Shown here in pieces: positions 39,794 to 58,982 of a stretch of DNA of 58,982 nt (position 1 is its first letter; each line of letters opens with the position of its first letter). The stretch spans positions 1-58,982 of the forward strand of contig CAMWXE010000027.1 in the NCBI GenBank assembly GCA_947178145.1, read 5' to 3'. The DNA comes from an uncultured Lachnospiraceae bacterium. Its GTDB lineage: Bacteria; Bacillota; Clostridia; Lachnospirales; Lachnospiraceae. Made by a program: the position numbers and the translations under genes. Under the pieces are notes generated by a model. The model was not told where the DNA came from. It saw only the letters and a list, made by a program, of their open reading frames with translations, and searched no databases.

Positions 39794-40617
39794 GGAATAC
39801 TGCGGGAAAAAAACGGGTGAAACCGCTGGTACTGGCAGGGCGTGCGGCGGTGCTCCTGCTGGCTGCAGCTGCGCTTTTCCCGGTTGCATTTATGTGTGTG
39901 AACGCATTTGCAGCGGAGTCAGCCATGGAAAATGCCGGGGGATTTCTGCCTTCCGGGTGGGGATTGTCAGGGTTCTATGAGGTGTTTGTGCGGCGGCCGG
40001 ATTATCTGGTAAAATTCTGGAATTCGCTGCTGCTCTCTGTAGCGGTTGTCGCGGGGCAGTGTGTGCTTTCGGCGCTGGCAGGATACGGTTTTTCGAAATT
40101 TGTGTTTCCATTCAGGGAGGCAGTCTATTTTGCCGTTATCGTGCTGATGCTCATGCCCTACCAGGTGACGCTGGTGTCGAATTTTCTGATCACGGATGCG
40201 CTGCACCTGAACAATACTTACTGGGCGATCCTGCTGCCCGGAATTTTCTCGCCGTTTGGCGTGTTTCTGATGCGGCAGGGGTTTGACGCCATGGAGGAGG
40301 GCATCCGGGAGAATGCCATGCTGGAGGGATGTTCGCAGCTGCGGGTTCTGACGCAGATTGCGGTGCCTGTCTGCCGGGGATGGATGACAGCCCTGATTCT
40401 GCTGGGTTTTGTGGATGCGTGGAACATGGTGGAGCAGCCGCTTGTCTTTCTGCAGGAGACATTCCGCTATCCGATTTCGGTTTTTCTCGCGCAGATGGAC
40501 GAGTCGCGGATGGATGTTCTGTGTACCTGCGGGATTCTGGTGCTGCTGCCTGTACTGCTGCTGTTTTTGTTCAGCGAGGAGGACTTGGCGGTCAGCGCTG
40601 CCGGATTGAAGGTTTGA
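39790..40617 (+). CDS. Sugar ABC permease (MalG/UgpE type)
   Basis: Membrane protein of 275 residues with six helices. The EAA motif is at ~175-195 (EEGIRENAMLEGCSQLRVLTQIAVPVCR); LNNTYWAILLPGIFSPFGVFLMRQ is typical of the MalG branch. It overlaps the MalF-type gene (ATGA). No ATPase gene follows, so the importer probably uses a shared MsmX/MalK-type ATPase encoded elsewhere. Confidence 0.92.
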   Translation: MRNTAGKKRVKPLVLAGRAAVLLLAAAALFPVAFMCVNAFAAESAMENAGGFLPSGWGLSGFYEVFVRRPDYLVKFWNSLLLSVAVVAGQCVLSALAGYGFSKFVFPFREAVYFAVIVLMLMPYQVTLVSNFLITDALHLNNTYWAILLPGIFSPFGVFLMRQGFDAMEEGIRENAMLEGCSQLRVLTQIAVPVCRGWMTALILLGFVDAWNMVEQPLVFLQETFRYPISVFLAQMDESRMDVLCTCGILVLLPVLLLFLFSEEDLAVSAAGLKV

Positions 40618-40625
40618 GGTGGAGT

Positions 40626-41084
40626 ATGAGTGCGAGAAAAAAGAGGACGTTGTGCTGTGCGGTTTGCATTTTTGTCATACTGTGTGTGTTTACGATTGTC
40701 TCCTACAGGACCAATATCAGGCTGATGCCCCATGTGGAGACGTTTTCGTACACGCCGCCGATTTTTCAGGCGGATGAGCGGCTGAAGTGGTATCTGCCGG
40801 AGGAAGCCTTTTTTGTAAACGCAAAGGGGCATATGGTGATTTACCGGATAAAGGAGCGCGTCGGGCGGTTTGGCAGAGAGTACTTTGTGCAGGAGGTGCA
40901 GCTTGACATTTATACGGAAAACGGACAGCGGGAAATCAGGGAGGACGGTCATATCCGTGTGATTGCGCCGAATCTGGAAGCGTGGGATAATCTGGTGTAC
41001 CGCAGCAGCCGGTTCTTTGCGGAGGGGGACGCTGTGGTGTGGGTGAATCCGGAGTCGGACAAGTCGGGGATTGTGCAGAAATAG
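40626..41084 (+). CDS. Membrane-anchored protein of unknown function, 152 residues
   Basis: Start at ATG 40626 after GAGGTGGAG. One N-terminal helix (~8-26, LCCAVCIFVILCVFTIVSY) anchors an extracytoplasmic beta-rich domain of ~120 residues (KWYLPEEAFFVNAKGHMVIYRIKERVG...). It is the fourth gene of the sugar importer operon, nine bases after the second permease, just before a terminator. No family recognised; possibly an accessory subunit of the importer. Confidence 0.7.
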   Translation: MSARKKRTLCCAVCIFVILCVFTIVSYRTNIRLMPHVETFSYTPPIFQADERLKWYLPEEAFFVNAKGHMVIYRIKERVGRFGREYFVQEVQLDIYTENGQREIREDGHIRVIAPNLEAWDNLVYRSSRFFAEGDAVVWVNPESDKSGIVQK

Positions 41085-41107
41085 TGTGTAGGTTGGTTTT
41101 GATGTAT

Positions 41108-41151
41108 AGGAACTGCAGGAAGGCCGGAACAGGCGGCGCAGTTCCTTTTTT
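41108..41151 (+). terminator. Terminator of the sugar importer operon
   Basis: AGGAACTGC (41108-41116) pairs perfectly with GCAGTTCCT (41138-41146), enclosing a 21-base loop that itself contains GGCC-type complements, followed by TTTTT. The remaining ~150 bases to the next promoter hold no supported gene. Confidence 0.8.
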
Positions 41152-41307
41152 ATGCACAGACCCGTGCAGAGGAAATATACCGCTAAGGCGGCGCACAGGT
41201 CTTTCTTCTGCTCGATTGCACATGATGCACACTTTGGCGTGGGCAATTGTGTAAAAGTGCTAAAAATCCGGACTTATTTTCTCACACATCTCCTGCCGCC
41301 TGACGTA

Positions 41308-41363
41308 TTGACTTATCATGTCTTCCTTGTTATGATAAACACAGATGCGCAAGCGGTTGCGCA
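41308..41363 (+). promoter_or_regulatory. Promoter and LacI-type operator of the galactan operon
   Basis: TTGACT (41308-41313), 17-base spacer, TATGAT (41331-41336). Ten bases downstream lies TGCGCAAGCGGTTGCGCA (41346-41363), a palindrome with a central CG and only one mismatched pair, the classic shape of LacI/GalR-family operators. It covers the start of transcription, so binding should repress. The LacI-type gene at 44086 in the same operon is the obvious ligand, implying autoregulation. Confidence 0.8.
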
Positions 41364-41408
41364 AAGTGTAGAAACATATCAAACATGATAAGAAAATGGA
41401 GAAAAATT

Positions 41409-42527
41409 ATGCTGGATTATATCAAAGGAATGGACATTTCATCATTGGATGAGATTGAAAAACTCGGTGCGAAGTTTTATGACAACGGCAAAGAGGGCGA
41501 CTTGATTCAGATTCTGAAAAGTTATGATACCAATTACATTCGTCTAAGACTCTGGAATGATCCCAAATCCCCGGAGGGAAAACCGTACGGGGCAGGAAAT
41601 ACGGACTATGAGACGACGCTTCGCATGGCAAAGCGCGTGAAGGCGGCAGGACTTGGATTTTTGCTGGACTTTCACTATAGCGATTTCTGGGCGGATCCCG
41701 GCAAACAGAGAAAGCCGAAAGCATGGGCAGACTACAATGTTGACCAGCTTGAGAGAGCAGTATATGATTTTACAAAAGAGATGATGACAGGCTTTGTCAA
41801 AGAAGGTGTGGCCCCTGATATGGTTCAGGTTGGGAATGAGTTGTCCAAAGGATTCCTCTGGCCAGAGGGACAGATTCCGAATTACGCCAACATTACACGT
41901 TTTATCAGTGCAGGCATTCGGGCTGTGCGGGAGGTATGTCCGACGGCAAAAGTCATGCTGCATCTTGACAATGGCGGAAATAATGCATTGTACAGGGAAT
42001 GGTTTGACCAGTATATTCATGTCAATAAAGGGGAGGATTTTGACATTATCGGACTTTCCTATTATCCATTCTGGCATGGTACACTGGAAGATTTGAGTAA
42101 TAATATGCAGGACATCGCTGTTCGATTTGGAAAGGAACTTGTGGTTGCGGAGGTTTCCATGGGCCACACTACACAGGATTATGCTGCGTATGAGAAACTT
42201 GCACCGGAAGATAGAAAGGGCATGGCTACAAAGCTTGAACTCTGTGAGAAAGTACCATTTGCGATGACAAAAGGGGGACAGTGTGATTTCATGAGGGCAT
42301 TTTTTGCGGTGCTCGAGAAAGTTCCTGAGAAGAAAGGGAGAGGTTTCTTCTACTGGGAGGCAGGATGGCTGCCAGTGCCGGGCAGCGGCTGGGCAACGGA
42401 AGCTGCACTTGCCTATATCAAGGAGTCAGGTCCAGGAGGAAACGAGTGGGCAAATCAGGCACTGTTTGATTACGATGGAAACGCACTCCCGGCGTTGGAA
42501 GTCATTAGAGATTATCGGCCGAAATAA
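41409..42527 (+). CDS. GH53 endo-beta-1,4-galactanase, intracellular
   Basis: Start at ATG 41409 after ATGGAG; 372 residues. The GH53 (beta/alpha)8 barrel is complete: KGMDISSLDEIEKLGAKFYDNG, YIRLRLWNDP, FLLDFHYSDFWADPGKQ, acid/base Glu144 in VQVGNELSKG and nucleophile Glu248 in LVVAEVSMGHT. There is no signal peptide, whereas most bacterial galactanases are secreted; this enzyme would cut imported beta-1,4-galacto-oligosaccharides in the cytoplasm. First gene of the operator-controlled operon, followed by galT. Confidence 0.93.
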   Translation: MLDYIKGMDISSLDEIEKLGAKFYDNGKEGDLIQILKSYDTNYIRLRLWNDPKSPEGKPYGAGNTDYETTLRMAKRVKAAGLGFLLDFHYSDFWADPGKQRKPKAWADYNVDQLERAVYDFTKEMMTGFVKEGVAPDMVQVGNELSKGFLWPEGQIPNYANITRFISAGIRAVREVCPTAKVMLHLDNGGNNALYREWFDQYIHVNKGEDFDIIGLSYYPFWHGTLEDLSNNMQDIAVRFGKELVVAEVSMGHTTQDYAAYEKLAPEDRKGMATKLELCEKVPFAMTKGGQCDFMRAFFAVLEKVPEKKGRGFFYWEAGWLPVPGSGWATEAALAYIKESGPGGNEWANQALFDYDGNALPALEVIRDYRPK

Positions 42528-42555
42528 AATTAAAATATAAATGGGGGTATTGGAA

Positions 42556-44067
42556 ATGATAACAGAGAACATTTCAACACTTGTAAACTATGGCATTGCA
42601 GCGGGGCTGCTCAATGAATCTGACAAGATTTATGTGACGAACACACTTTTGGAATTGTTTGAACTGGATGAGTATGCGGAACCCGAAAATCCGACAGTGG
42701 TAACAAACCCGGCAGAGTTTGATCTGGAGGGGCTTTTGAAGCAGATGCTTGACTATGCGGTGGATCAGGGGCTGCTTTCAGATGACAGTGTTGTGTATAG
42801 GGATTTATTTGATACAAAGATTATGGGAATGCTGGTTCCGCGTCCTTCTGATGTGATCGAAACATTCGAGAAGCTTTACAATGAGAAGGGCGCAAAAGCT
42901 GCGACTGACTGGTACTATAATTTCAGCCAGAATACAGACTATATCAGGCGCTACCGCATAGCGCGTGACATGAAGTGGAAGGCTGACACTGAGTACGGAG
43001 AGATGGATATTACGATCAATCTGTCCAAACCGGAAAAAGATCCCAAGGCAATCGCGGCAGCAAAAAATGCAAAGCAGAGCGGGTATCCGAAATGTCAGCT
43101 CTGCATGGAAAACGAGGGTTATGCTGGGAGAGTGAACCACCCTGCGAGACAGAATCACAGGATCATTCCGGTCACGATCCAGGGGAACAGGTGGGGATTC
43201 CAGTACTCACCATATGTATATTACAATGAGCATTGTATCGTGTTTAACAGCCAGCACATTCCCATGAAGATCGAACATGACACGTTTGTCAAGCTGTTTC
43301 ACTTTGTGGAGCAGTTTCCCCATTATTTTGTGGGTTCCAATGCGGATCTTCCGATTGTGGGCGGCTCTATCCTGAGTCATGATCATTTCCAGGGCGGAAA
43401 TTATGAGTTTGCGATGGCAAAAGCACCAGTTGAGAAAGCGTTTCAGATCAAGGGCTTTGAGGACATTGACGCAGGTATCGTCAAGTGGCCGATGTCAGTA
43501 ATAAGACTTTCACACAAGGATTACAACAGAATTATCGAGCTTGCAGATGTAATTCTGGCAAAGTGGCGTGGATACACAGATGAATCGGCATTTATTTTGG
43601 CAGAGACAGACGGGGAACCGCATAATACGATCACTCCAATTGCCAGAAAGCGTGGGGACAACTATGAGCTGGATCTGGTTCTTAGAAATAATATCACAAC
43701 TGATGAGCATCCGCTTGGGGTGTATCATCCGCACGGAGAACTTCATCATATTAAGAAAGAAAATATCGGATTAATAGAAGTGATGGGACTTGCGGTGCTG
43801 CCGTCGAGATTAAAATCCGAATTGGAGCAGCTTGCGGATGCAATTGTCGGGAAAGAGGATATTCGGAAAAATGAAGTGTTGGAGAAACATGCTGACTGGG
43901 TAGAAGAATTTCTTCCAAAGTATGACAATGTCAATAAGGACAATGTGAGGGAGATTATTCAAAAAGAAGTAGGTATTGTATTTGGAAAAGTGCTTGAGCA
44001 CGCAGGTGTGTACAAGAGAGACGAAGCTGGAAAAGCAGCGTTTCAGAGGTTTATTGACAGTATATAG
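42556..44067 (+). CDS. galT: UDP-glucose--hexose-1-phosphate uridylyltransferase, class II GalT
   Basis: Start at ATG 42556, seven bases after GGGGGT; ATG 42541 has no ribosome site. The product has 503 residues, the length of the Gram-positive class II family. Motifs: LPIVGGSILSHDHFQGG, YSPYVYYNEHCIVFN, and the C-terminal GVYHPHGELHHIKKENIGLIEVMGLAVLP. It exchanges UDP between glucose and galactose-1-phosphate in the Leloir pathway. galK and galE are not in the window. It links the galactanase and beta-galactosidase to central metabolism. Confidence 0.95.
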   Translation: MITENISTLVNYGIAAGLLNESDKIYVTNTLLELFELDEYAEPENPTVVTNPAEFDLEGLLKQMLDYAVDQGLLSDDSVVYRDLFDTKIMGMLVPRPSDVIETFEKLYNEKGAKAATDWYYNFSQNTDYIRRYRIARDMKWKADTEYGEMDITINLSKPEKDPKAIAAAKNAKQSGYPKCQLCMENEGYAGRVNHPARQNHRIIPVTIQGNRWGFQYSPYVYYNEHCIVFNSQHIPMKIEHDTFVKLFHFVEQFPHYFVGSNADLPIVGGSILSHDHFQGGNYEFAMAKAPVEKAFQIKGFEDIDAGIVKWPMSVIRLSHKDYNRIIELADVILAKWRGYTDESAFILAETDGEPHNTITPIARKRGDNYELDLVLRNNITTDEHPLGVYHPHGELHHIKKENIGLIEVMGLAVLPSRLKSELEQLADAIVGKEDIRKNEVLEKHADWVEEFLPKYDNVNKDNVREIIQKEVGIVFGKVLEHAGVYKRDEAGKAAFQRFIDSI

Positions 44068-44085
44068 AAGACAGGTGTGAGTCAG

Positions 44086-45135
44086 ATGGAAACATTTCGC
44101 AACGACAGACTGAAAGACAGATTTGGAAATAAAAAGATTACAATTTCAGATGTGGCGGAAGCGCTCAGTGTTTCTAAGACGACTGTCTCAAGGGCAATAT
44201 CGGGTAAGGGACGGATCAGTGAGGACACGAGGCAGAAGGTTCTCGCCTATATTGAGGAGAACGATTACAAACCAAATGTGATTGCAAAAGGGCTTGCGCA
44301 GAAGAAAACATATAATATTGCACTGGTGATTCCCGGGGACTGCAATCTTGTGGATATCCCCTTTTTCCAGAACAGTATGCAGGGGATTTGTGAGGAGGCT
44401 TCTGCGCATGACTACGATGTCATGCTTGTGACAACAACGGGGAATTCGTCTGCAAATCTGGAGCGCATGATTGCAAATAATAAGGTGGATGGTGTGATAC
44501 TGAGTCGTTCCATGATTAAGGACAGGAATGTGGACTTATTAAAGGCGCAGAATATTCCCTTCGTGTTGATGGGGACTTCGAGAGATCAGAACATTTTACA
44601 GGTAGACAATGATCATAGGACAGGATGCAGTGAGATGGTAAGTTTTCTGCTTCGCAACAAAGATGCGGGAATCGGATTGATCGGAGGCAGCAAAAATTAT
44701 GTTGTAAATCGAACTAGAAAGCAGGGATATGAGGATGCATTTAAAATTGCAGCAATAGAACCAAATCAGTCACTGATTTTTGAGAACTGCGACAGATCAG
44801 ACAAGATTGAATCTGCGGTAATTAAGCTGATTCAGGGAAAAGTATCATCTATCGTCTGTATGGATGATGTGGTCTGTTCTGTAGTGCTGCAGGTCTTAGC
44901 TGAGAAAAATATTCTGGTGCCAGGGCAGATTCAGGTAGTATCATTTTATGATAGTGCACTGCTAAAAAACAGCAGGCCGCCAGTTACATCACTTGTGTTT
45001 GACGACAGAGCGCTTGGGGCGCGCACCTGTAGAATTTTGCTGCAATACATTCAGGGTGAAGAGGTAGAGGGAAGGACATTGCTTGGCTATAAGCTGGTCA
45101 TCAGAGAGTCCACAGAAGGAGGATGGTATGTCTAA
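44086..45135 (+). CDS. LacI-family transcriptional regulator
   Basis: Start at ATG 44086 (GTG 44077 in frame is an alternative); 349 residues. N-terminal HTH ITISDVAEALSVSKTTVSRAISG with the hinge helix NVIAKGLA, then a periplasmic-binding-protein-like sensor (~65-345: NIALVIPGDCNLVDIPFFQNSM..., SIVCMDDVVCSVVLQVLAEK). It probably binds the operator at 41346 and is released by a galactoside or phosphorylated sugar. The gene is inside the operon it would control and overlaps the AraC-type regulator by eight bases. Confidence 0.93.
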   Translation: METFRNDRLKDRFGNKKITISDVAEALSVSKTTVSRAISGKGRISEDTRQKVLAYIEENDYKPNVIAKGLAQKKTYNIALVIPGDCNLVDIPFFQNSMQGICEEASAHDYDVMLVTTTGNSSANLERMIANNKVDGVILSRSMIKDRNVDLLKAQNIPFVLMGTSRDQNILQVDNDHRTGCSEMVSFLLRNKDAGIGLIGGSKNYVVNRTRKQGYEDAFKIAAIEPNQSLIFENCDRSDKIESAVIKLIQGKVSSIVCMDDVVCSVVLQVLAEKNILVPGQIQVVSFYDSALLKNSRPPVTSLVFDDRALGARTCRILLQYIQGEEVEGRTLLGYKLVIRESTEGGWYV

Positions 45136-46054
45136 GAAGAAAAAGAAACCTGCAGAGTTTCGCTTTTATGAGGTGCCACAGGATGAGTCTGTGCTGGCGC
45201 TGATGGGCAGCAAATGGATCCAGGTTTATGGTGAGAATATTGACAATATGCATTTTCACAATCTGCTCGAGATCGGATATTGCCATTATGGAGACGGGGA
45301 TCTGATCATCGAGGATGACATGTATCGGTTCGGATCTGGCATGGTTTCCTGCATTCCAGCAAATGTCCTGCATGTCACCAGAAGTGATGCGGAGGTCATG
45401 GCATTTTGGGAATACATATATATTGATCCGGAAGATATACTAAGACAGTGGGGGAAAGCGACACAGGAGATTAGGGACATCATGGAGGCGATTGGCAGGA
45501 GAGCTTTTTTTATAAAGGCTGAGGACAATCCGATGATCGTAACGCTGGTACGTGCAATCTTTGAGGAGATGCAGCACAAGAGCGAGCATTACAGGGATTG
45601 TGTCAGAGGAATCACCTATTCGCTGCTGTTTGAGATAATACGTTTTAACGGCAAGATATCTGGGCAGAGCTTCTGGAAAAGTGGCAGTCTACAGCTCGAA
45701 AGTGCGATAATGTATGTGGAGAAAAACTACGCAGATAATTTTAAGATTGCGGATTTGGCAAATGAATGTCATATGAGTGAGACGCATTTTAGGCGTGTTT
45801 TTCAGGAGAAAATGAATATGACTCCCGTTGAATATGTGAATTTTGTGAGAGTCAAAAAAGCGTGTGAGCTGATTGACAAGTCCGATATCAGCATGGAGGA
45901 TGTGGCTGAAAAAGTGGGATTTGCCACACCGTCAACGTTCAACAGAAATTTTCGGCGTATCATTGGCACATCACCTTATCAGTGGAAGAAACGTCCGGAT
46001 AATCACGAAGGAAAGTTAATGGAGTATAAGATATCAGCTTTAAAGGGGTGGTAG
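45128..46054 (+). CDS. AraC-family transcriptional regulator
   Basis: Start at ATG 45128 after AGAAGGAGGATGG; 308 residues. N-terminal cupin sensor (~15-110: MHFHNLLEIGYCHYGDGDLIIEDDMYRFGSGMVSCIPANVLHVT) and C-terminal double HTH (~205-300: YADNFKIADLANECHMSETHFRRVFQEKM... VAEKVGFATPSTFNRNFRRIIGTSPYQWKK). AraC proteins of this type activate sugar genes. It overlaps the LacI-type gene and precedes lacZ by 121 bases, making the lacZ promoter its likely target. Confidence 0.93.
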   Translation: MSKKKKKPAEFRFYEVPQDESVLALMGSKWIQVYGENIDNMHFHNLLEIGYCHYGDGDLIIEDDMYRFGSGMVSCIPANVLHVTRSDAEVMAFWEYIYIDPEDILRQWGKATQEIRDIMEAIGRRAFFIKAEDNPMIVTLVRAIFEEMQHKSEHYRDCVRGITYSLLFEIIRFNGKISGQSFWKSGSLQLESAIMYVEKNYADNFKIADLANECHMSETHFRRVFQEKMNMTPVEYVNFVRVKKACELIDKSDISMEDVAEKVGFATPSTFNRNFRRIIGTSPYQWKKRPDNHEGKLMEYKISALKGW

Positions 46055-46115
46055 CGCATTCCGTGAGAACACGATTCAGAATAAACGAAATTGCACGAAA
46101 TTAAGAAGATAATAA

Positions 46116-49223
<3,108 letters not shown>

Positions 49224-49248
49224 ATATCCCGGATAAGGAGGAATGAAA

Positions 49249-51108
49249 GTGGATAAATTTGTAGTAAACATTATCCATCGTCCGGAGATGGTTCCGGAGT
49301 ATTCTGCGACTGTCACAGGACAGGGCAAAGAGGAGGATATCGGAGATAAGGCGCTTTTGACAGAATCTCTTGACATCTTCAAGACACAGCAGAGACTGGC
49401 ACATGAGAACGGTCTGAAGGTCACAATCCAGATGACATACGCTTCGCTGTTCAATGATGAGGCAGTGGAGATTGCAAAGCATGACCATGAGGAATTTGGT
49501 GATGAGATTGCACTTTCCTTACTCGGACTTCCCTGTGAGGAGTTCCGCGAGAAGTACAAGACAAAGGACTTCTGCATCTGGATGTTCTCCATGGAGGACA
49601 AGAAGGCGATCGTGAACGATGTCTTTGAGAAGTTCCATGACCGGTTTGGTTTCTATCCCGAGTCGACAGGTTCCTACTACATGGACGCTGAGCTGACAAA
49701 CTACATCAAGGAAAAGTACCCGACAGTGAAATGCGCGGTCGCGACATGCTGGGAGGAAGGTCCCAAGGCATACCACACCTGCAACAACTCCTGGTACACC
49801 CTGTTTGACGGCGGTCCATGGGCTCCGTGGATTCCATCCAAGCAGAATACCCATGCGCCGGCAGCAAACGCGGCGGAGGACTCCGGTATCGTTGCGATCC
49901 CGCATCTGTCAAGAGATCTGATCGCGTGCTATGACGGAAATGGTTCCAACTTTGGCACGCATCCGCAGAATGTGCTCCGCGGTATGATCTACGACACCAA
50001 GACATGGGAGTATCCATATCTCTACAACTTAATCGACCAGTACCGCGACCTGGCAAAGTACAACAACGGATATTCTTACAATATGATGTTTGTGGGACCA
50101 GGCTGGATGAACAAGATGGGACGCTGGGAGCAGCCGTATGAACTTTTGTACAAGTCCTACAGCGATGGCTGCAAATATTACGGCGACCTGAAGAAGGAAG
50201 GCAAGCTCATCGACATGACGATGGCGGGGTTTGCAGACTATTATAGAGAGAAGAAAGGCGTCAATGCAGGAAACTACAATGAGCCAGAATGCGCGCCGTG
50301 GAGAGATATCCTCTATGGCTCTGACAAACAGTTGTTCTGGTACTGTGATCCGTACATGAGAGCCTGTGTCAACATGGACCAGGGCGGCGCGATTGTCGAC
50401 CTTCGCCCTTATGTGGCAAAATTAAACTGGCCTGTCGGAATCGGCACACCGCATGTGCAGGATGCGTCCTATCCGTTCCTGATTCAGGAGAAGTACCGCG
50501 CAGGTTACTTTACACACTATGCCGGAGCTGGCACCGTGAGAAGCGCGAAGCTTTCCTGCAAGGGTGAGGAAGTCGATCTCTGCCTCTGCCCGACACACTG
50601 TCATTTCTCAGAGGAAGTGATCGATGGCAGGAAGACAAGGATTCTGACACTTGATCCGGTGGAGATTCAGTTTAATGGTGTGTCTGTGAAGATTCAGACG
50701 AAAGAGTACTTTGAGGAAGGCGCTTCCAACATCAAGATCGAGAGAAACATTCTCGAGATCAGTGATCCTTCCGCGGAGATTACGCTTGACGAGTACATCA
50801 CGGCATGCTACGGCACGACAGAGTATCCGGAGGACATGTCAGGCATCACACTTGCATGCGAGGGCGAGAACGGCACGACCATCAACTATGAATACAGATG
50901 CCGCGATGCGAAGCTTGACGGCGCGAGCGCAGTAAGCGCAGTGATTCCGGCGATCCAGACCAAGGTTTCCCTCACTGCTTCTGACAAGGCGCTCGGATAT
51001 ATCGAAGAAGGATACGCGTTCTCTCCGATGTTCAAGCTCGGCTACAAGAAGACAATTTCTGATAAGGAGGTATTTGCAACATGGCTCAACTTGGAAAAGG
51101 CAAATTAA
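49249..51108 (+). CDS. Unidentified 619-residue protein, probable carbohydrate-active barrel
   Basis: Start taken at GTG 49249, seven bases after AAGGAGG; ATG 49243 is one base from it and too close. No signal peptide. The N-terminal ~300 residues look like a (beta/alpha) barrel of polysaccharide-deacetylase/glycosidase type (NGLKVTIQMTYASLFNDE; FGFYPESTGSYYMDAELTNYI; VAIPHLSRDL), followed by beta-rich segments. It may belong to the DUF3863/DUF3864 proteins, but I am not certain. Codon use is strongly biased to C-ending TAC, AAC, GAC and ATC, unlike lacZ, which suggests very high expression. It overlaps the next gene by 28 bases and probably takes part in galactoside or glycan use. Confidence 0.7.
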   Translation: MDKFVVNIIHRPEMVPEYSATVTGQGKEEDIGDKALLTESLDIFKTQQRLAHENGLKVTIQMTYASLFNDEAVEIAKHDHEEFGDEIALSLLGLPCEEFREKYKTKDFCIWMFSMEDKKAIVNDVFEKFHDRFGFYPESTGSYYMDAELTNYIKEKYPTVKCAVATCWEEGPKAYHTCNNSWYTLFDGGPWAPWIPSKQNTHAPAANAAEDSGIVAIPHLSRDLIACYDGNGSNFGTHPQNVLRGMIYDTKTWEYPYLYNLIDQYRDLAKYNNGYSYNMMFVGPGWMNKMGRWEQPYELLYKSYSDGCKYYGDLKKEGKLIDMTMAGFADYYREKKGVNAGNYNEPECAPWRDILYGSDKQLFWYCDPYMRACVNMDQGGAIVDLRPYVAKLNWPVGIGTPHVQDASYPFLIQEKYRAGYFTHYAGAGTVRSAKLSCKGEEVDLCLCPTHCHFSEEVIDGRKTRILTLDPVEIQFNGVSVKIQTKEYFEEGASNIKIERNILEISDPSAEITLDEYITACYGTTEYPEDMSGITLACEGENGTTINYEYRCRDAKLDGASAVSAVIPAIQTKVSLTASDKALGYIEEGYAFSPMFKLGYKKTISDKEVFATWLNLEKAN

Positions 51109-51299
51109 ACTACAGATGTCCATCCTGCTTTATGCGAGACCTCGACATCGATATGTTCTACAATAAGGACACGGGCATCTACAGCTGCATCCGCTGCCAG
51201 TACAGGGGAACAGAGGAAGATGTGCTCGAGAAAAACGAGATGGTGCGGTTCCGCTATCTCGACAGGGCAAAGCGATTTACGAAGTTTGATTTTGATTAG
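51081..51299 (+). CDS. Small zinc-ribbon protein, 72 residues
   Basis: ATG 51081 lies inside the end of the preceding gene, eight bases after AAGGAGG, which is itself coding. The product is CPSC (12-15) ... CIRC (35-38), a four-Cys zinc ribbon, with a basic-aromatic tail ending RFTKFDFD. The 28-base overlap implies coupled translation and a functional link. No known family recognised; a role as a small subunit or regulator of the upstream protein is inferred. Confidence 0.8.
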   Translation: MAQLGKGKLNYRCPSCFMRDLDIDMFYNKDTGIYSCIRCQYRGTEEDVLEKNEMVRFRYLDRAKRFTKFDFD

Positions 51300-51302
51300 A
51301 TG

Positions 51303-51335
51303 AAAAAAGGACTGCGAGATGCAGTCCTTTTTTAT
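51303..51335 (+). terminator. Terminator ending the lacZ transcription unit
   Basis: AAAAAAGGACTGC (51303-51315) and GCAGTCCTTTTTT (51321-51333) are perfect complements around a five-base loop. Confidence 0.9.
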
Positions 51336-51471
51336 AGTTTCTAATAGCGTGGTTGAGTTTGGCGTCTGATCTCAATTGTTCATTGATTGTGTATTCCGCG
51401 CTGCTGTGATAGACTTTTATGTAACAGGGAATCCTGTTTTTAACAGGTTGAAACGCATGGGAGGGGAAAGA

Positions 51472-52716
51472 ATGCTGGACAGGGAGAAAGTCGGGAGGGC
51501 AATCTCAGAACAGAGGAAGTCAAAAGGAATGACGCAGAAACAGCTTGCAGATATGCTGAACGTATCCTATCAGGCAGTCTCCAGATGGGAGCAGGGGACC
51601 AGCCTGCCTTCAGTGGATATGATTTATGATATTGCGCAGGTGCTTGACACTACTGTTGATTTTCTGTTAAATGGGCTTTCGAAGGAACGAAAGATGATCA
51701 GCTATCTGGATACAGGTCTGGATGCCAAAAAGATTCATATCATAAAGGACAGATTAAGCCGTCTGATCACGCAGGATGAGAGGCTGCTCCATGCAACTGT
51801 TGCGGATCCAGTATTTTTTCAGCCAGAGTTTCAGGAAATGGAGGATCCAGTATGTGTACTGGCAAACCAGGTTCCTGGTTCCAAGGAGCGCTTTGCCATG
51901 GAGAACGGATACGACAGGGAGATTTGCATGGATCTGGTTTCGGCCACAGCGAACAATTTGATACGTTTTGGGGTGAAACCGTCTGTCTTACTGGTGAATA
52001 CGGTCTGCGGAAACAACGACGGAGGCCAGCTTCTGCTCATGGGGGAAGCGTTTAAGGAGGCATGCGAGAGCAACGGAATGATATTCGCGGGGATGGAGGT
52101 GGCGGCACAGGCTGTCAATTATAATGCAAATGAATACAAAATAGGGGCCTTGGTGATGGGAATCTGTGACAGGAAGGAAATCATAACAGGAAACAAAATC
52201 ACAGAGGGAGATATCCTGATTGCCCTGCACACACAAGGCATCTCATCGCTCAGTTATCCCTTTGTCAAAGTGATTCTTGACAGAAGACCGGACATCGCAT
52301 ATGCAAAGCTGGAGGGAGAGAAAATCTTTATGGACGAACTGATGAAACCAAACACTTCATATGTGAATGTAATCTGCGAGCTAAAGAGACAGAATCTGAT
52401 ACATGGCGTTTTTGCGGTCAGCAAATCGCTGTTTAATCGAAAGTGCTACAATACCATGCCGAAAGGTCTGGGAGCAGGTATCTGCGTTGCAGCGATACCA
52501 GTTCCTGCGCTGTTTCAATATCTCTATGATTTGAATATGATGGACAGAGAGTGTTTTCTGGATGATTTTTCGCTTGGTGTTGGCATGCTGCTGGCAGTGC
52601 CAAAGGAGCAGTGTGACAGAGCAGTGAAGGTTATCGAGAAGTACCACCCATGCTATTGCGTTGGAAAAATAGAAAAGGATGCGGAACATCCTGATGCACG
52701 TGTATGGGAAGTGTGA
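51472..52716 (+). CDS. XRE-type HTH fused to a degenerate AIR-synthase (PurM)-like domain
   Basis: Start at ATG 51472 after GGGAGGGG; 414 residues. Residues ~5-65 are an XRE helix-turn-helix (ISEQRKSKGMTQKQLADMLNVSYQAVSRWEQG). From ~80 on the chain follows the PurM/AIR-synthase fold: YLDTGLDAKKIHIIKDRLSRL, DLVSATANNLIRFGVKPSVLLVNTV, LVMGICDRKEIITGNKITEGDILIALHTQGISSLSYPFVKVIL, and the C-terminal FSLGVGMLLAVPKEQ with HPCYCVGKI. Catalytic blocks are altered: the SGTDGVGTK segment reads NQVPGSKERF and GGETA reads GMEVA. It is therefore probably a ligand-sensing regulator rather than an enzyme. The ABC exporter pair follows after 20 bases. Confidence 0.82.
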   Translation: MLDREKVGRAISEQRKSKGMTQKQLADMLNVSYQAVSRWEQGTSLPSVDMIYDIAQVLDTTVDFLLNGLSKERKMISYLDTGLDAKKIHIIKDRLSRLITQDERLLHATVADPVFFQPEFQEMEDPVCVLANQVPGSKERFAMENGYDREICMDLVSATANNLIRFGVKPSVLLVNTVCGNNDGGQLLLMGEAFKEACESNGMIFAGMEVAAQAVNYNANEYKIGALVMGICDRKEIITGNKITEGDILIALHTQGISSLSYPFVKVILDRRPDIAYAKLEGEKIFMDELMKPNTSYVNVICELKRQNLIHGVFAVSKSLFNRKCYNTMPKGLGAGICVAAIPVPALFQYLYDLNMMDRECFLDDFSLGVGMLLAVPKEQCDRAVKVIEKYHPCYCVGKIEKDAEHPDARVWEV

Positions 52717-52736
52717 AGAGAGGTTGGAGGGATTGT

Positions 52737-54440
52737 ATGGTAAGGGCGGGGGTGCGCAATGGTTATCTGTTGCTGCTGTTTATAATATTTTCGGTAGTAT
52801 TGAATGAAATTGTTTTGATGGGAAACGATTTGATCGCGCAGGCTGCAGACAAGGTGCTGAGCGGGCATCAGGTGGATTTTACAGCGTTTATGGTGCCGTT
52901 GATGTGGATGATTGTGCTGGGGACAGCGGCAGCTTATCTGAAAAGTATCTCTGGCAGTCACTACAGTGCGGTGGTGCAGAGGGATGTGCGTGCATCGCTC
53001 GGAAGACATTTAATGAAACTGCCCTTTTCTTACTTTGATGAAAAGAGCAGTGGAAGTGTCATCACCAGGCTGATATCAGATATGGATGAGCTTGGAAGGT
53101 TCTTCTCGGAAATTCTACCCAATCTTTTAGCCAATATCATTGTAGTGGTGATATCGACTATATATCTTGTTCAGTTGGATGCATTGCTGATCGTTGTATT
53201 ATTTGCAAGTTATCCGATTATGCTGGTTGTGGCAGACAGGCTGTCCAAGAAGCTTGCCGAGATTACCAAAAGATTGCGCACTCATATGGACGAGTGCAAT
53301 GAGAAGGCCTACGACGCGATTCAGGGCATCGTGATTGGCAGGAGCTACAACCTTTATGAGTTGCAGAAAAAGGAGATTGATGCTGTCGTTGACCGCAAGG
53401 TGGAGCAGGCCTGTAAGAGTACACGCATCTCCTCCATGGGCTGGGTTCTGAAAAATGTAATCACCACAATACCTGTTATCATTTGCTATCTGTTTGCGCT
53501 GTATGAGACGATGCAAGGAAGGATTACAGTCGGTGAAATGCTTGCGTTCACAGTGATTCTCGGCAGAATTTTGTATCCGATTGGCGATATTGTATTCTGT
53601 GCAAATGATATCCGGGAAGTCGGTGTATCTTTGAAAAGACTGCAGGAGATTTATGATCAAAAGGAAGAGAGCGCAGGAGGAGACATACATACACAGCCGC
53701 AAGACAACGAGGAGATTGCAGCGATCGAGTGGAAGGATGTAACATTTCGTTATGATAACAGCGAAGCACACCCTGTTTTAAATGGAATGAGCTTTCTGAT
53801 TGAAAAGGGCGAACAGACCGCATTTGTGGGAGGTTCCGGAGAGGGAAAAACAACCATATTTAAGCTGCTTTGCGGCTTTTATGAGAAAAATAGCGGTCAA
53901 TATAAGCTTTTTGGACATTCCTTTGAGGAGTGGGATTTGGAGGCGGCAAGGAGCTGCTTTTCCGAGGTCTCACAGAATGTCTTTTTGTTTCCAGAAACCA
54001 TCAGGCAGAATGTAGCTTGTGGCAAAGAGAATGCGACGTTTGAGGAAGTTGTGGAAGCGTGCAAAAACGCAAATATCCATGATTTTATTCAGCAGCTTCC
54101 GGAGGGTTATGAGACGCTTGTGGGTGAGCGCGGTGTGCGTCTTTCCGGAGGACAAAGACAGAGAATTTCAATAGCGAGGGCTTTTCTGAAGGATGCACCG
54201 ATTCTGCTGCTGGATGAGCCGACAGCTGCTGTCGATGTCGAGGCAGAGCAGAAAATACAGGAGGCGATTGACAGAATCACAGCGGGAAGAACAGTGATTG
54301 TCATTGCGCACAGGCTTTCCACGGTCAGAAATGCGAGACGGATCTATGTGGTGAGCAGCGGTCAAATAGTGGAGACGGGAAGCCATGAGGAGCTCGTTGA
54401 GAGAAGGGGAATCTATGCAGAAATGTATGCAAAAGGTTGA
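52737..54440 (+). CDS. ABC exporter half-transporter, first subunit
   Basis: Start at ATG 52737, four to six bases after TTGGAGGGA; 567 residues. Six transmembrane helices (~10-300, ABC_membrane type), then the ATPase: Walker A GGSGEGKT, signature LSGGQRQR, Walker B ILLLDEPTAAVD, H-loop VIAHRLS. The gene overlaps the second half-transporter by 26 bases, so the two likely form a heterodimer. Cargo unknown; multidrug or peptide export is typical of this class. It lies directly behind the XRE-PurM regulator and is probably controlled by it. Confidence 0.9.
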   Translation: MVRAGVRNGYLLLLFIIFSVVLNEIVLMGNDLIAQAADKVLSGHQVDFTAFMVPLMWMIVLGTAAAYLKSISGSHYSAVVQRDVRASLGRHLMKLPFSYFDEKSSGSVITRLISDMDELGRFFSEILPNLLANIIVVVISTIYLVQLDALLIVVLFASYPIMLVVADRLSKKLAEITKRLRTHMDECNEKAYDAIQGIVIGRSYNLYELQKKEIDAVVDRKVEQACKSTRISSMGWVLKNVITTIPVIICYLFALYETMQGRITVGEMLAFTVILGRILYPIGDIVFCANDIREVGVSLKRLQEIYDQKEESAGGDIHTQPQDNEEIAAIEWKDVTFRYDNSEAHPVLNGMSFLIEKGEQTAFVGGSGEGKTTIFKLLCGFYEKNSGQYKLFGHSFEEWDLEAARSCFSEVSQNVFLFPETIRQNVACGKENATFEEVVEACKNANIHDFIQQLPEGYETLVGERGVRLSGGQRQRISIARAFLKDAPILLLDEPTAAVDVEAEQKIQEAIDRITAGRTVIVIAHRLSTVRNARRIYVVSSGQIVETGSHEELVERRGIYAEMYAKG

Positions 54441-56133
54441 TTTAAAAACTTCAAATATAAGAATTTTTTGGCGTTTTATGGGTCTGATGGGTGACAGGCT
54501 TCCAGTCTATTTAGGAGCTATTTTGGTTTCTACGGTAGGTGATGCGGGGCGCAGGATCGCAAACTCTTATCTGATCAATAATATTGTCACAGCGGCGCAG
54601 AAGCAGAATACAGATAACGTGCTGTTGCCTGTTCTTGGTAATTTTATAGTATTTGTACTCTGCTTGCTGCTTTGGCGGTTTGGCATTATACACTACAATA
54701 TCGAGGGGCGAACTGGCGCAGGGAAACTGGAGAAGCTCGTGTTTTCTAAGGCGATGCGCCTACCCATGTCCTATTATGAGAACAATCACAGCAGTGACTT
54801 TATGTCACGTCTGATTTTTGATACACAGAAGGCTTCAGATATTTACACATCAAGGCTGCGCAGACTGCTTGCGGCGATGTTATCGACGGTAATGTATCTC
54901 ATTCCTATGCTTTATTTTAGCTGGGAACTAACACTCTGTATGGTCGGAATCAGTCTGTTGGCTTTTGCGGGAAACAGTTTCTTTGCAAAGCCTATGAAAG
55001 AAGCCGGAAGTCGTCTTTCTGACAAGAACAAAAAGATGCTTGAGAAGCTGACTAGCATTCTGTCCGGCATGGAATTGATTAAGATATTTTCAGTTGGGAC
55101 AAAGCTGACAGAGGAGTATGAAGACGCAAACAGGGAATATTTTCACATTCAGAAAAGAACGAACCGGCTGTCGGCGGGACTGGAATCCCTGAATCAGATG
55201 CTTGACCTAGTCGGTGCGTTGGCTTTTCTGGGGATTGGGATCTGGTTTGTGTCGCTTGGACGGGTGAGTCTGGGGGCGTTGACAGCACTTTACTCGCTGT
55301 ATGGCACATTTCGGTATGCCTTTTTGGAAATAGGGCAGTATCTGCCGCAGATGATGAATTGTATTGCCAACGCCGAGAAAATTTTTGAGCTGGTTGATAT
55401 GGCGGAGGAGCCAGCGCAGTGGAAGATAGAGGTTGATTCAGACTGCGACTGTGAAGACAATATGGAAGACGAAAAAATGATGCTGTCCATGCGGAATGTG
55501 AGTTTCTCTTATGATAATAGTGAGCGAAAGATTCTGGACCAGTTTTCGATGGAAGTCAGAAAAGGAAGTTATGTTGCGGTTGTGGGTGAATCAGGGTGTG
55601 GAAAAAGTACACTTGTGAAACTTTTGTTAGGGTTTTATCCAGTTGGAGCGGGGAGTATGTCGATTGGAGGAAAGGCGTATCGCGACCTTACATTAAAGGA
55701 AATCAGGGAGCAGATTGCCTATGTCCCGCAGGAGCCCTATCTGTATGAAGTGAGTATTGCCGAAAATATAGCTTATGGCAGGTGTGGTGTGAGCCGCGAG
55801 GAAGTCATAGCGGCAGCAAAGGCGGCAAATGCCCATGAATTTATTATGAAACTGCCAAACGGATATGACACAATGCTGGGAGAGCGTGGAAATACGTTGT
55901 CAGGTGGGGAAAGACAACGGATTGCGATTGCCCGTGCTATTATCAGAAATACGCCTGTAATGATATTGGACGAAGCGACTTCGGCGCTTGACAATGAGTC
56001 TGAGTCACTTGTACAGGAGGCGATCAAAAGGCTGAGACAGGATCGCACGATACTGATGATTGCCCACCGCCCCGGCACGATTGCTGCGGCAGATGAGGTG
56101 GTTACTGTTCATGCTCCGTCTGATTTTTTATGA
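54415..56133 (+). CDS. ABC exporter half-transporter, second subunit
   Basis: Start at ATG 54415 after GAGAAGGGGA (ATG 54427 also possible); 572 residues. Six transmembrane helices to ~300, then ATPase with Walker A GESGCGKST, signature LSGGERQR, Walker B VMILDEATSALD and H-loop MIAHRPG (Pro for the usual Leu after His-Arg). An acidic insert DSDCDCEDNMEDE links the two halves. Both subunits keep the catalytic Glu, so neither nucleotide site is obviously dead. Last gene of the 51472-56133 unit. Confidence 0.9.
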   Translation: MQKCMQKVDLKTSNIRIFWRFMGLMGDRLPVYLGAILVSTVGDAGRRIANSYLINNIVTAAQKQNTDNVLLPVLGNFIVFVLCLLLWRFGIIHYNIEGRTGAGKLEKLVFSKAMRLPMSYYENNHSSDFMSRLIFDTQKASDIYTSRLRRLLAAMLSTVMYLIPMLYFSWELTLCMVGISLLAFAGNSFFAKPMKEAGSRLSDKNKKMLEKLTSILSGMELIKIFSVGTKLTEEYEDANREYFHIQKRTNRLSAGLESLNQMLDLVGALAFLGIGIWFVSLGRVSLGALTALYSLYGTFRYAFLEIGQYLPQMMNCIANAEKIFELVDMAEEPAQWKIEVDSDCDCEDNMEDEKMMLSMRNVSFSYDNSERKILDQFSMEVRKGSYVAVVGESGCGKSTLVKLLLGFYPVGAGSMSIGGKAYRDLTLKEIREQIAYVPQEPYLYEVSIAENIAYGRCGVSREEVIAAAKAANAHEFIMKLPNGYDTMLGERGNTLSGGERQRIAIARAIIRNTPVMILDEATSALDNESESLVQEAIKRLRQDRTILMIAHRPGTIAAADEVVTVHAPSDFL

Positions 56134-56143
56134 GAAAAAACCC

Positions 56144-56172
56144 TTGATTTTCAAGCCTTTTCGTGCTATAGT
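56144..56172 (+). promoter_or_regulatory. Sigma-A promoter of the truncated FMN riboswitch
   Basis: TTGATT (56144-56149), 17-base spacer, TATAGT (56167-56172), 24 bases before the aptamer-like sequence. Confidence 0.7.
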
Positions 56173-56195
56173 AATCTACGGAAACAAAATAACAA

Positions 56196-56220
56196 ATCTT
56201 CGGGGCAGGGTGTGATTCCT
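56196..56220 (+). promoter_or_regulatory. 5' fragment of an FMN riboswitch (RFN element)
   Basis: ATCTTCGGGGCAGGGTG (56196-56212) followed by TGATTCC matches the conserved first part of the FMN aptamer (P1 strand and P2 5' side). The required continuation, with the ACCGGCGGT block and later AGTC-GGATG and closing AGAAGAT strand, is not found downstream. The element therefore breaks off near 56219, probably at the insertion point of the AT-rich island. Established: the motif is diagnostic of FMN riboswitches. Inferred: the rest and its riboflavin gene were displaced. Confidence 0.7.
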
Positions 56221-56727
56221 ATAGCCAAAAACCGTGTAAAATAAGGCATTTCAGAGGGTACAGTAAGTGGGTTTACACCAATTTTACACCAAACGCAAAA
56301 ATGAGAGCCTTAATATGATATGAATTGAATATTCGGACAAATGCATAAGTCCATTATCAGTTAAATTCCAATAGCTGATAGTGGGCTTATTTTGATGCCT
56401 GAGTATATCCAACAAGGAATATACACACAAACCATTTAACCATCTTAGAATAGCTCACAGTGAGTCACAGAGGCATTCCAGAATCACTATACCATTCAAA
56501 TTATCATTATCAAGAATTAACTATCCATTAATCACCAACCATCAAATTGACACAAAATCACACGCAACATAAAAACAGTATTTCATTGACAATTGACACA
56601 CAAATCAAATTCCATCAGTTAGATAGCTCAATCTGACTTAAACTTATCAATCAACAAAATTCAGCAACCTAATTTAATGATGCAGTAAACATCAATCCAC
56701 CCAACACAAATCAAGGAGGACAAATGC
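56221..56727. other. Gene-free AT-rich stretch with TTTACACCA repeats
   Basis: No gene is supported in these ~500 bases. TTTACACCA occurs at 56272-56280 and 56283-56291 (period 11), and GTGTAAA at ~56234 is its inverse, a pattern seen at recombinase arm or attachment sites. The remainder is AT-rich without ORFs or clear hairpins until the AAGGAGG before 56728. Confidence 0.4.
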
Positions 56728-57087
56728 ATGTACGGTAGAGTAACCAAATATTTCACAGACAGGGGATATGGCTTCATACGTGGTGAGGATAACAATTCAT
56801 ACTTTGTGCACCATTCACAGTTAAACGGTGAGCACATTGAGAGAGGATACTATGTATTCTTTAAACCATACAAAACGGACAGGAGTGATTACAATGCTGG
56901 GAACGTAACTGTAATTGAAACGCCAGATAAACAATTAAATAGTACAGCCAAAAAGAAAAAGACCAAGAATCATATTTCATCTAAGCATAAATCATGTAAC
57001 GCAGATAAGATAATCAGACCGGACAAACAATTTAAGAAGTTCATCAAAAAATTTATGGAAGAAAAGGAGACACACATATGTCAGTAA
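56728..57087 (+). CDS. Cold-shock-domain protein with basic tail
   Basis: AAGGAGG lies eight bases before ATG 56728; 119 residues. Residues 1-66 form a CSD/OB fold (MYGRVTKYFTDRGYGFIRGEDNNSYFVHHSQL; RNP1-like GYGFI and RNP2-like YFVHH). The remaining ~50 residues are Lys-rich. It would bind single-stranded nucleic acid. The tail is unusual, since normal Csp proteins end at ~67 residues. The gene overlaps the HU gene by ten bases and has AT-rich codons, fitting a mobile island. Confidence 0.8.
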   Translation: MYGRVTKYFTDRGYGFIRGEDNNSYFVHHSQLNGEHIERGYYVFFKPYKTDRSDYNAGNVTVIETPDKQLNSTAKKKKTKNHISSKHKSCNADKIIRPDKQFKKFIKKFMEEKETHICQ

Positions 57088-57371
57088 ATAAAAAAGAATT
57101 TGCAGATAGAATGGCTGAAAAAGGCGGAATAATGAAGAAAGATGCAATGAAGGGATTGGAACTGTTCATTGATACACTCATGGATTGTATGAGCAACAAT
57201 GAAAGAGTAATGATTAAGGGATTTGGCAGATTTGAGATGAGAACAGCAAAAGAGAAAATAGGCAGGAACCCACAAACCGGGCAGCAATGTATCATACCTG
57301 AACATGAAAAAATAAAATTTGTTGCAAGTGAGGGACTTGTGGACAGAATCAAAGAAAGAAGGAACGAATAG
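57078..57371 (+). CDS. HU-family DNA-binding protein
   Basis: GAAAAGGAG precedes ATG 57078; 97 residues. HU/IHF fold: NKKEFADRMAEKGG at the start, VMIKGFGRFEMRTAKEKIGRNPQTGQQCIIPEHEKIKFVAS in the beta arms, including the GRNPQTG tip. HU bends DNA as a dimer. The seven-residue C-terminal helix SEGLVDRIKER is normal. It belongs to the AT-rich island and may help recombination or replication of the element. Confidence 0.92.
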   Translation: MSVNKKEFADRMAEKGGIMKKDAMKGLELFIDTLMDCMSNNERVMIKGFGRFEMRTAKEKIGRNPQTGQQCIIPEHEKIKFVASEGLVDRIKERRNE

Positions 57372-57375
57372 TCAT

Positions 57376-57726
57376 ATGCAGTTAAAAGACAGAATTGTAA
57401 TAATCAGTGAAAAGAATATGAACAATATTAATGCTTTGTATGGTAAATGTACCACAGATGAATTAGAGCGGATTGTAAACAATATGATTGATAATGCAGT
57501 TGTAGAGATTAATGAGGATAGGAGCAAATTACATATGGATAAGATAGTTAGTTGCAGCGAATGTGAATTTATGAAGATGTATGATTATGGGAGCAGGATT
57601 TATTATTGTGACCATGAAGATAGGACAGACGATATGGGGAAATTGGGTGTAGGTGATGTACCAAGGATATGTCCTAAATGGTGTCCGTTGAGTTGTAAGA
57701 TTGATGACAGCTCTGCTGCCAAATGA
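57376..57726 (+). CDS. Cys-rich small protein, unknown, 116 residues
   Basis: ATG 57376 lies four bases after the HU stop; no strong ribosome site, so translation may be coupled. Residues ~60-108 hold CSEC, YYC, ICPKWC and C, a likely metal-binding set. The N-terminal half is helical. No family recognised; similar Cys-rich proteins occur in phages and plasmids. Confidence 0.6.
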   Translation: MQLKDRIVIISEKNMNNINALYGKCTTDELERIVNNMIDNAVVEINEDRSKLHMDKIVSCSECEFMKMYDYGSRIYYCDHEDRTDDMGKLGVGDVPRICPKWCPLSCKIDDSSAAK

Positions 57727-57782
57727 AAAATCTGACTGTCCAAATTTGGACAGTGAAATTTAAAAATATAGGAGTGTATCAT

Positions 57783-58067
57783 ATGAAGTTTAAAGATTTA
57801 GAATGGAAAGATGTTGTATCAGATAATGTGATTGTAAGTAGTCATTGCATGATTAATTTATGCGGCGTGATAAAAATAGAATTTCAGATTAATTATGATC
57901 CAAAAGACAATCAATATTATCTATATGCATTTGGTAAAGGGAGTAGCAGGAGATTACAGCCTGAAAAGTGTGGTTCAATAGAATCGGCTAGGAATGTTGC
58001 ATATAAGATATATTCAAATGAGATGGAACGGATAAAAAAAGCGATTGATTATCTGGTGGTTACTTAG
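57783..58067 (+). CDS. Hypothetical island protein, 94 residues
   Basis: ATG 57783 follows TATAGGAG; an in-frame ATG 57723 overlapping the previous gene lacks a ribosome site. The product is a small alpha/beta protein (MKFKDLEWKDVVSDNVIVSS... YYLYAFGKGSSRRLQPEKC...) without signal or membrane segment. No family recognised. Confidence 0.55.
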   Translation: MKFKDLEWKDVVSDNVIVSSHCMINLCGVIKIEFQINYDPKDNQYYLYAFGKGSSRRLQPEKCGSIESARNVAYKIYSNEMERIKKAIDYLVVT

Positions 58068-58176
58068 AAAAAAGTAACGAGAATGACTGGGAACCAAATG
58101 TTGCCGAGTGAATTTAACTGAACACGAAATCGTGGTGAGTGAAATTTAACAAAATATTTGAAAATAAAAGTAAGGT

Positions 58177-58209
58177 AAAAGATTGCGCCGTTTTTGGCGT
58201 GGTCTTTTT
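58177..58209 (+). terminator. Terminator in the island
   Basis: AAAAGATTGCGCC (58177-58189) pairs with GGCGTGGTCTTTTT (58196-58209), using several G-T pairs, around a six-base T-rich loop. It follows two short direct repeats GAGTGAATTTAAC (58106) and GAGTGAAATTTAAC (58137). Confidence 0.7.
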
Positions 58210-58601
58210 ACAATGCGATCAATCAGGAAGGGACTTAAAAGTTTTAAGACCCATGAATCAACAAAGGGGTGAACGAAACATTTATCCCTATAAACAAAAA
58301 GAGGATGTTAAAATTTTTAACAGGCTTACAAGTAACAACCATTTGGTTGTAAGTAAAAACTACTCAAGCGAAAATTATCTTTAGTAAATTTCTATCTGCC
58401 AGTAGAACAAAAAAAGAGAATATATAGGTATGGTTTCGGATGTGAAATATATTCACAGCAGAAAATATATTTACCAGAAGAAATGTAAATATGTGGTGTC
58501 CCAAAATGGGAAGTCACATTGCAGAAAAAGAAAAATTGATAGAAGAAATGTAGAAGTATTTATTGTAAAGGTTATTTAGTTGAAAAATGAATATTGAAAA
58601 T

Positions 58602-58820
58602 ACATATAAAGTTTTCGTGCTGACGCACTCAAAAATCTTATTTGTATTGTCGGGTTCCATTTTTGACTATACGAGAATGACATATAAATTATTTCCTTAT
58701 ATGTGCATTTCAAACAGTCAAATTTGGAAAACAATATATGTAAATTAAGAAGTCAAATTACAACATCAAAAATCAGATTTTTTGAGCGGTAGCGAAAAAC
58801 TTTATATGTGATTGACTATA
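58602..58820. repeat. Cluster of ACATATAA inverted repeats and TTGACTATA direct repeats
   Basis: ACATATAAAGTTTTCG (58602-58617) is mirrored by CGAAAAACTTTATATGT (58793-58809), one extra A apart. Between them ACATATAA (58680-58687) and TTATATGT (58697-58704) form a hairpin. TTGACTATA occurs at 58663 and 58812. No gene lies from 58385 to 58851. The arrangement could be an operator, origin or recombination region of the mobile element. Confidence 0.5.
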
Positions 58821-58851
58821 TTCTAAAAAAGAAAAATGAAGGAGAAAAAGC

Positions 58852-58982
58852 ATGTATACACAAAGAGGGAAGAAATATATCTATTCAGTTATTCAGGCAA
58901 ACGAATTTATCCAGAGAGGATATAGATGCTTGGAGACAGGATTTAATTCAAAACAGAGGAAGTATTATTGGGTATTTGATTA
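58852..58982 (+). CDS. Start of an unidentified island gene (partial)
   Basis: GAAGGAGAA lies seven bases before ATG 58852. Forty-three codons are visible to the window edge (MYTQRGKKYIYSVIQANEF..., ...YYWVFD). The sequence is basic and aromatic, and no family can be named. Confidence 0.6.
   Translation, partial: MYTQRGKKYIYSVIQANEFIQRGYRCLETGFNSKQRKYYWVFD

Follow-up and report, generated by a model that had tools for sequence, protein, structure and literature searches.

Retired enzymes joined to a DNA-binding head are a known route to new regulators: PurR of Bacillus subtilis is a dead phosphoribosyltransferase with a winged helix-turn-helix (HTH), GabR/MocR proteins combine an aminotransferase fold with an HTH, and ROK repressors combine a sugar-kinase fold with an HTH. 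Here we analysed a stretch of 58,982 nucleotides (the window) from an uncultured Lachnospiraceae bacterium (GCA_947178145.1, contig CAMWXE010000027.1), in which a gene for an XRE head fused to a domain derived from PurM (AIR synthetase, phosphoribosylformylglycinamidine cyclo-ligase) stands directly ahead of two ABC half-exporter genes (Table 1). Like PurR, GabR and ROK, this protein joins a metabolic-enzyme fold, with catalysis lost or bypassed, to a DNA-binding head; unlike them, it uses the AIRS-superfamily fold with an XRE head, and its apparent targets are export and acetylation. The best explanation, which we consider probable, is that the fusion acts as a one-component transcription regulator whose probably dead PurM-derived domain serves as a dimerising sensor and which controls a pump, with or without a GNAT acetyltransferase, for a toxic compound.

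An AIRS-fold protein has been connected with transcription in another setting, since SEPHS1 is part of the human coregulator Zincore (SEPHS1:QRICH1). Zincore differs in being a eukaryotic coregulator that acts in a complex. To our knowledge, no fusion of it to a DNA-binding head has been described. With respect to the targets, a described counterpart is the Blt-BltD operon of B. subtilis, which is controlled by BltR, a regulator of the MerR type, and in which Blt is an MFS pump. Blt is described as a spermidine exporter and BltD as an acetyltransferase (PMC11998418). As in Blt-BltD, an efflux pump here appears to be co-controlled with a GNAT near the SpeG/diamine acetyltransferases, but the pump is an ABC pair rather than an MFS protein, the regulator is an XRE-PurM fusion rather than a MerR-type protein, and the GNAT of the relatives lies far under the SpeG cut-off. 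The original prediction held that no system of this kind had been described; this agrees with our literature search, in which no bacterial regulator on a PurM fold was found among the matches listed, judged by title and the start of the abstract and with little subscription literature covered.

The same prediction saw an XRE-PurM fusion ahead of an ABC pair, and this observation was confirmed. HTH_3 matched the N-terminal part with 61.1 bits (Pfam cut-off 23), identifying a Cro/C1-type HTH; this call rests on Pfam and predicted secondary structure, and the VIA-align rows mostly cover residues 85-414. The C-terminal part matched PurM by profile and has the PurM fold in the structure model, although the window protein scored 130.7 bits against the NCBIfam PurM equivalog TIGR00878, below its cut-off of 236.35. 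Compared with PurM, the fusion adds an N-terminal XRE head, its catalytic blocks are replaced and it sits with transport genes, whereas an ordinary purM lies elsewhere in the genome, on C30. The window protein consists of a DNA-binding head and an enzyme fold that has lost catalytic residues.

To describe this loss across the family, 39 PurMs, 4 standalone paralogues and 35 fusions were aligned; L084, which ends at a contig edge, and L083, which has a shortened frame, were excluded from alignment and tree. The fusions fall into clade A (21 sequences, window-like), clade B (4, with 37-41% identity to the window protein) and clade C (10, with 32-34% in the three compared). At 97 positions that are at least 90% conserved in PurM, the PurM residue is the commonest in clade A at 33, a different state reaches 90% conservation or more at 31 (a gap in one case), and 33 are variable; for clade C the corresponding numbers are 61 with the PurM residue, 33 with another conserved state and 3 variable. 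Clades A and B have other residues over most of the catalytic blocks DGVGTK, VND, GGETAEMPG, HSNG and HITGGG. Clade A reads (H/Q)VPGSK in place of DGVGTK and lacks the aspartates of DGVGTK and VND, the HSNG block and the HITGGG histidine; GGETAE is mostly gone, with its first G and the E remaining. Clade C keeps VND, GGET, HxNG and HITGGG, and has DGVGTK replaced by EEPGSK. The G-S-K of the former DGVGTK loop is present in all 35 fusions and all 4 standalone paralogues, preceded by P in both groups except in at least one clade-C row. In E. coli PurM, the histidine of HITGGG, the aspartate of VND and a lysine at around position 27 matter for function. PDB titles naming the Pyrococcus mutants H239A and N186A are compatible with this. 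Judged by these motifs, the clade-A domain is probably catalytically dead, and because most conserved active-site residues are gone in the window's clade, the guess of a normal purine intermediate as ligand is weakened.

An unrooted tree was built from 45 sequences, part of those aligned. It placed 25 fusions on one side of a branch (support 100/96) and 16 PurMs on one side of another (support 100/100), with four standalone EEPGSK proteins between fusions and PurMs and with clades A and B (15 rows) behind a long branch of 2.28. The clades can be arranged along a gradient, with C enzyme-like and A and B remodelled, and a similar operator-like layout occurs in A and C; together these make an origin from enzyme to sensor traceable in stages, its direction being inferred because the tree is unrooted. 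The standalone paralogues (L085:1501-2589 and L104-L106, the latter being 3 of the 30 loci fetched from the phylum search) carry EEPGSK for DGVGTK and have GGET-like and HITGGG blocks. The standalone paralogue P0004 scored above the curated TIGR00878 cut-off with 256.3 bits, and so did the clade-C XRE fusion L058:5890-7137 (272 versus 236 bits), so that such regulators are likely misnamed as purine enzymes in databases.

In the genus search (36 genomes, including the window's own), a type A or B fusion was found in 17 genomes and type C in 3. The family search (397 genomes) gave 9 genomes besides the own one with matches at E 1e-45 or better (31-36% identity), all nearer to clade C (64-81% to L058). 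The class search (391 genomes), which scored only a few candidates per genome and covers matches at E 1e-60 or better, gave 28 matches; the HTH part was found in none of the 27 from other genomes, all of which start at model position 64 or later. In the phylum search 338 of 398 genomes matched, mostly with ordinary purM as far as read, and plasmid records gave 28 matches, all below 60% identity, the annotated ones among the best 20 of the 28 being purM. Thirteen of 21 loci from named records are labelled Lachnospiraceae, and the fusions occur in bacteria within this family or close to it. As for neighbours outside clades A and B, the three clade-C loci of the genus (L056-L058) have an SDR-like and then a thioredoxin-reductase-like gene directly behind the regulator, called by position and length in all three and by Pfam for L058 only. 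By eye, an ANT(6)-like nucleotidyltransferase adjoins the clade-C fusions L076 and L077 of other genera, with MacB-type ABC genes further off (an ATPase and permease two genes downstream in L077, a similar pair upstream in L076); the clade-C fusion L078, also of another genus, adjoins a hisZ-hisG-like pair; and the gene after the standalone paralogue of L085 resembles a glycyl-radical enzyme.

We then examined the exporters. Each of the two adjacent half-transporters has a transmembrane and a nucleotide-binding domain, and they share 29% identity; from this and their adjacency, a heterodimer is predicted. Both match TIGR02203 and P-glycoprotein chains strongly, as expected of the MsbA/P-glycoprotein type, yet the best 25 rows for each (of 190 and 198 families) are all below the curated cut-off. 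Clade A comprises 25 loci (the window, L034-L054 and L062-L064, of which L047 and L054 are near-identical), and the ABC pair lies directly behind the regulator in 20, counting L037 (first ABC frame broken), L064 (contig end) and L062 (regulator in two pieces). Of the others, L053 has a fused ABC remnant and four have no pair: L044, L047 and L054 have a GNAT acetyltransferase behind the regulator instead, and L045 has a divergently transcribed EamA-type permease. Both the pair and a GNAT are present in L050 and L052. In clade B, L059 and L060 have an orthologous pair, L061 ends at a contig edge, and L055 carries an AraC gene, with an ABC pair lying further off. Exporter 1 orthologues with at least 58% identity were found 14 times in 60 genomes (up to 22 candidates scored per genome), the next match having 43%. 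Thirteen adjoin the regulator; the fourteenth (G011) is interrupted by a contig break, with the regulator on one of the two contig ends, and would pair with it. The pairing persists even where identity has dropped to 58% for the exporter and 38% for the regulator, with open frames retained in most module loci. Decayed or misassembled modules were also seen: a truncated regulator with the fused ABC remnant (L053:8001-9787), a split first ABC frame (L037:2090-3747), and the two-piece regulator with N bases (L062:5279-6512). Among the genomes searched, every genome with an exporter 1 orthologue belongs to one genus, so shared inheritance explains part of the linkage.

Upstream of the regulators we found a general element, TTGAG-N13-CTCAAT-N5-RTTGATTG, behind which stands TGATAAA or a closely similar sequence. 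The spacing, also that between the element and the probable promoter, is constant in 18 of the 20 sites aligned; L041 and L049 have one base more. With up to 3 mismatches allowed, the site ahead of the regulator is the sole match in the window, with 0 mismatches, and at least one match occurred in 16 of 100 shuffled windows. Upstream regions were scored at 18 partly degenerate positions, each against 200 single-base shuffles of itself; L063, whose gene is truncated, was left out. In clade A, 23 of 24 loci scored 16-18, above all 200 shuffles, the twenty-fourth (L042) having 91 bases only; in clade C, with GGTTATTG-like right ends, all 11 scored 15-18 and 10 exceeded all shuffles. As a control, eight purM upstream regions scored 11-14. 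Because the consensus was drawn from the same sequences, these scores are descriptive, and the genome scan is the more independent test. In 60 genomes, the exact short pattern matched 27 times (in 19 of them), with 10 matches falling at regulators and 2 at GNAT genes, versus 2 for the reversed control; when a longer pattern was run over 36 genomes with as many as 3 mismatches allowed, it matched 9 times, eight of these at regulators and one unexamined, versus 0 for the control. The window's genome (5.48 Mb) has a single exact short-pattern match, at the regulator. The automatic scan for a sigma-70 promoter at 51280-51500 found none. The element is putatively bound by the regulator at its own promoter, and since its right end overlaps the likely -35, the layout fits repression. 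Another candidate operator, AACAGG-GAAT-CCTGTT-TTT-AACAGG from 51423, is a perfect-looking palindrome and was rejected because it occurs only in the window among the upstream regions compared.

Table 1. Features of the regulator-exporter locus in the window
Feature	Position	Strand	Description
Intrinsic-terminator-like hairpin	51303..51333	+	14 pairs; 1 found versus a mean of 0.1 in shuffles; separates upstream gene from regulator unit
Operator-like element	51353..51389	+	TTGAG-N13-CTCAAT-N5-ATTGATTG; 18/18 consensus positions
Probable promoter	51387..51415	+	-35-like TTGTGT, 17 bp, -10-like TAGACT; hexamers by eye; overlaps right end of operator-like element
XRE-PurM fusion regulator	51472..52716	+	414 aa; HTH 1-65, low-confidence linker 70-82, PurM-derived domain about 75-414
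ABC half-exporter 1	52704..54440	+	ABC_membrane + ABC_tran; start overlaps end of regulator gene by 13 bases
ABC half-exporter 2	54385..56133	+	ABC_membrane + ABC_tran; frame overlaps exporter 1, true start may be later

The acetyltransferase of the relatives was found in 5 of 40 genomes, each time on the same contig as the regulator and no more than about 9 kb from it, and in two more (G032 and G034) through the operator search; in all, 8 of the 25 clade-A loci have one, with L034-L036 taken as G012, G034 and G032. In G032 and G034 (L036 and L035), a second copy of the element lies directly before the GNAT gene, about 4.5 kb past the pump. This copy keeps the -10-like spacing, and its spacer differs from the one at the site of the regulator itself. 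SpeG and the diamine (polyamine) acetyltransferases come closest to the GNAT: the top PDB match was a spermidine acetyltransferase (1.1e-9), and PRK15130 (NCBIfam SpeG) gave 40.2 bits, below the cut-off of 218. This likeness hints at an amine as the ligand. Joint control of the regulator, the pump and, in some relatives, the GNAT is supported by the operon structure and the shared element, and the second target before the GNAT, together with the element, makes the regulon directly testable.

Based on these data, we propose that the XRE heads of a PurM-type dimer, a dimerisation suggested by PurM, would sit on the element and block the promoter of their own operon. Without a signal, the regulator gene, the two half-exporters and, in some relatives, the SpeG-like GNAT would be repressed. 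A small toxic compound entering the remodelled PurM pocket would release the regulator, and the exporters, with the acetyltransferase where present, would then remove or modify the compound.

Several observations weigh against this proposal. All four clade-B loci, two of them with the full ABC pair, scored 12-13 for the element, no better than shuffles, though by eye three of them have a similar layout with one extra base; the element is thus conserved in clades A and C, not B. The consensus was built from the scored sequences, and the shuffles preserve single-base content only. Fifteen of the 27 short-pattern matches lie elsewhere (the 7 read all lack the TTGATTG end), so the short pattern by itself lacks specificity. 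The window's own genome has no GNAT, and the locus of the distant GNAT of G012 has no strict-pattern element. Finally, no orthologous exporter pair was found behind clade C (3 genus loci and 9 in other genera), so export through this pair characterises only part of the fusion family. The original prediction therefore stood in part. The linkage with exporters that it expected holds for most close relatives and not for the wider fusion family (clade C), and its idea that the fusion controls the exporter behind it is supported by the element shared by regulator genes and, in two genomes, a GNAT gene, the binding itself being putative.

Alternatively, the PurM-derived domain might be a mere dimerisation scaffold, the protein being a constitutive autorepressor without small-molecule input or one released by another protein. 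PurM is dimeric, and clade A has changed or become variable at two thirds of the positions that PurM conserves; the 31 new conserved states and the G-S-K kept throughout fusions and paralogues suggest a maintained pocket instead, and export and acetylation are typical targets of ligand-controlled regulators, which leaves the scaffold improbable. We rate as still more doubtful a thiol, redox or metal switch in which Cys152 and Cys394, with the conserved Cys179 and Cys198, react to electrophiles or disulfide stress. Cys152 and Cys394 are present in all 35 aligned fusions versus 0% and 3% of the 39 PurMs, and the flavoprotein and SDR genes behind the three genus clade-C regulators would suit such a switch; however, Cys198 is equally conserved in PurM, Cys179 occurs in 44% of PurMs and Cys152 in half of the 4 standalone paralogues, and an ABC exporter with a GNAT would be an atypical redox regulon.

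The ligand of a sensing domain might also be a purine-pathway intermediate or a purine-like antibiotic that the module exports or acetylates, as the original prediction suspected in proposing a nucleotide. PurM ancestry hints at a purine-like ligand, clade C retains most active-site blocks other than DGVGTK, and N-acetylation combined with efflux is a known defence against aminonucleosides such as puromycin. The motif losses of clade A and a GNAT closest to polyamine acetyltransferases argue against it, in the loci read no purine gene stood out next to clade-A regulators, and we consider a purine ligand unlikely. A broader version, that PurM turned via a clade-C-like intermediate into ligand-sensing factors whose derived branch is a receptor for purine-like or nucleoside toxins driving export and N-acetylation, is likewise unlikely and speculative; if true, the PurM pocket would have been reused as an antibiotic receptor. 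Very improbable, finally, is that an XRE regulator and a multidrug pump are adjacent by coincidence or common descent, the PurM copy being a passenger in decay. The restriction of exporter 1 orthologues to one genus and the broken copies in L037, L053 and L062 fit that idea, but the pairing in 14 of 14 genomes across such divergence, the frames kept open in most loci and the second element ahead of the GNAT speak against it.

Rfam gave no match at gathering score in 40000-58982. Just downstream of the operon, 56192-56263 weakly resembles an FMN riboswitch (14.9 bits against a gathering score of 66.2, E 0.94); shortened mid-way, it is possibly a remnant interrupted by an insertion. Further on, at 56728-57371, small cold-shock-domain and HU-like genes follow in a stretch that by eye resembles a mobile element.
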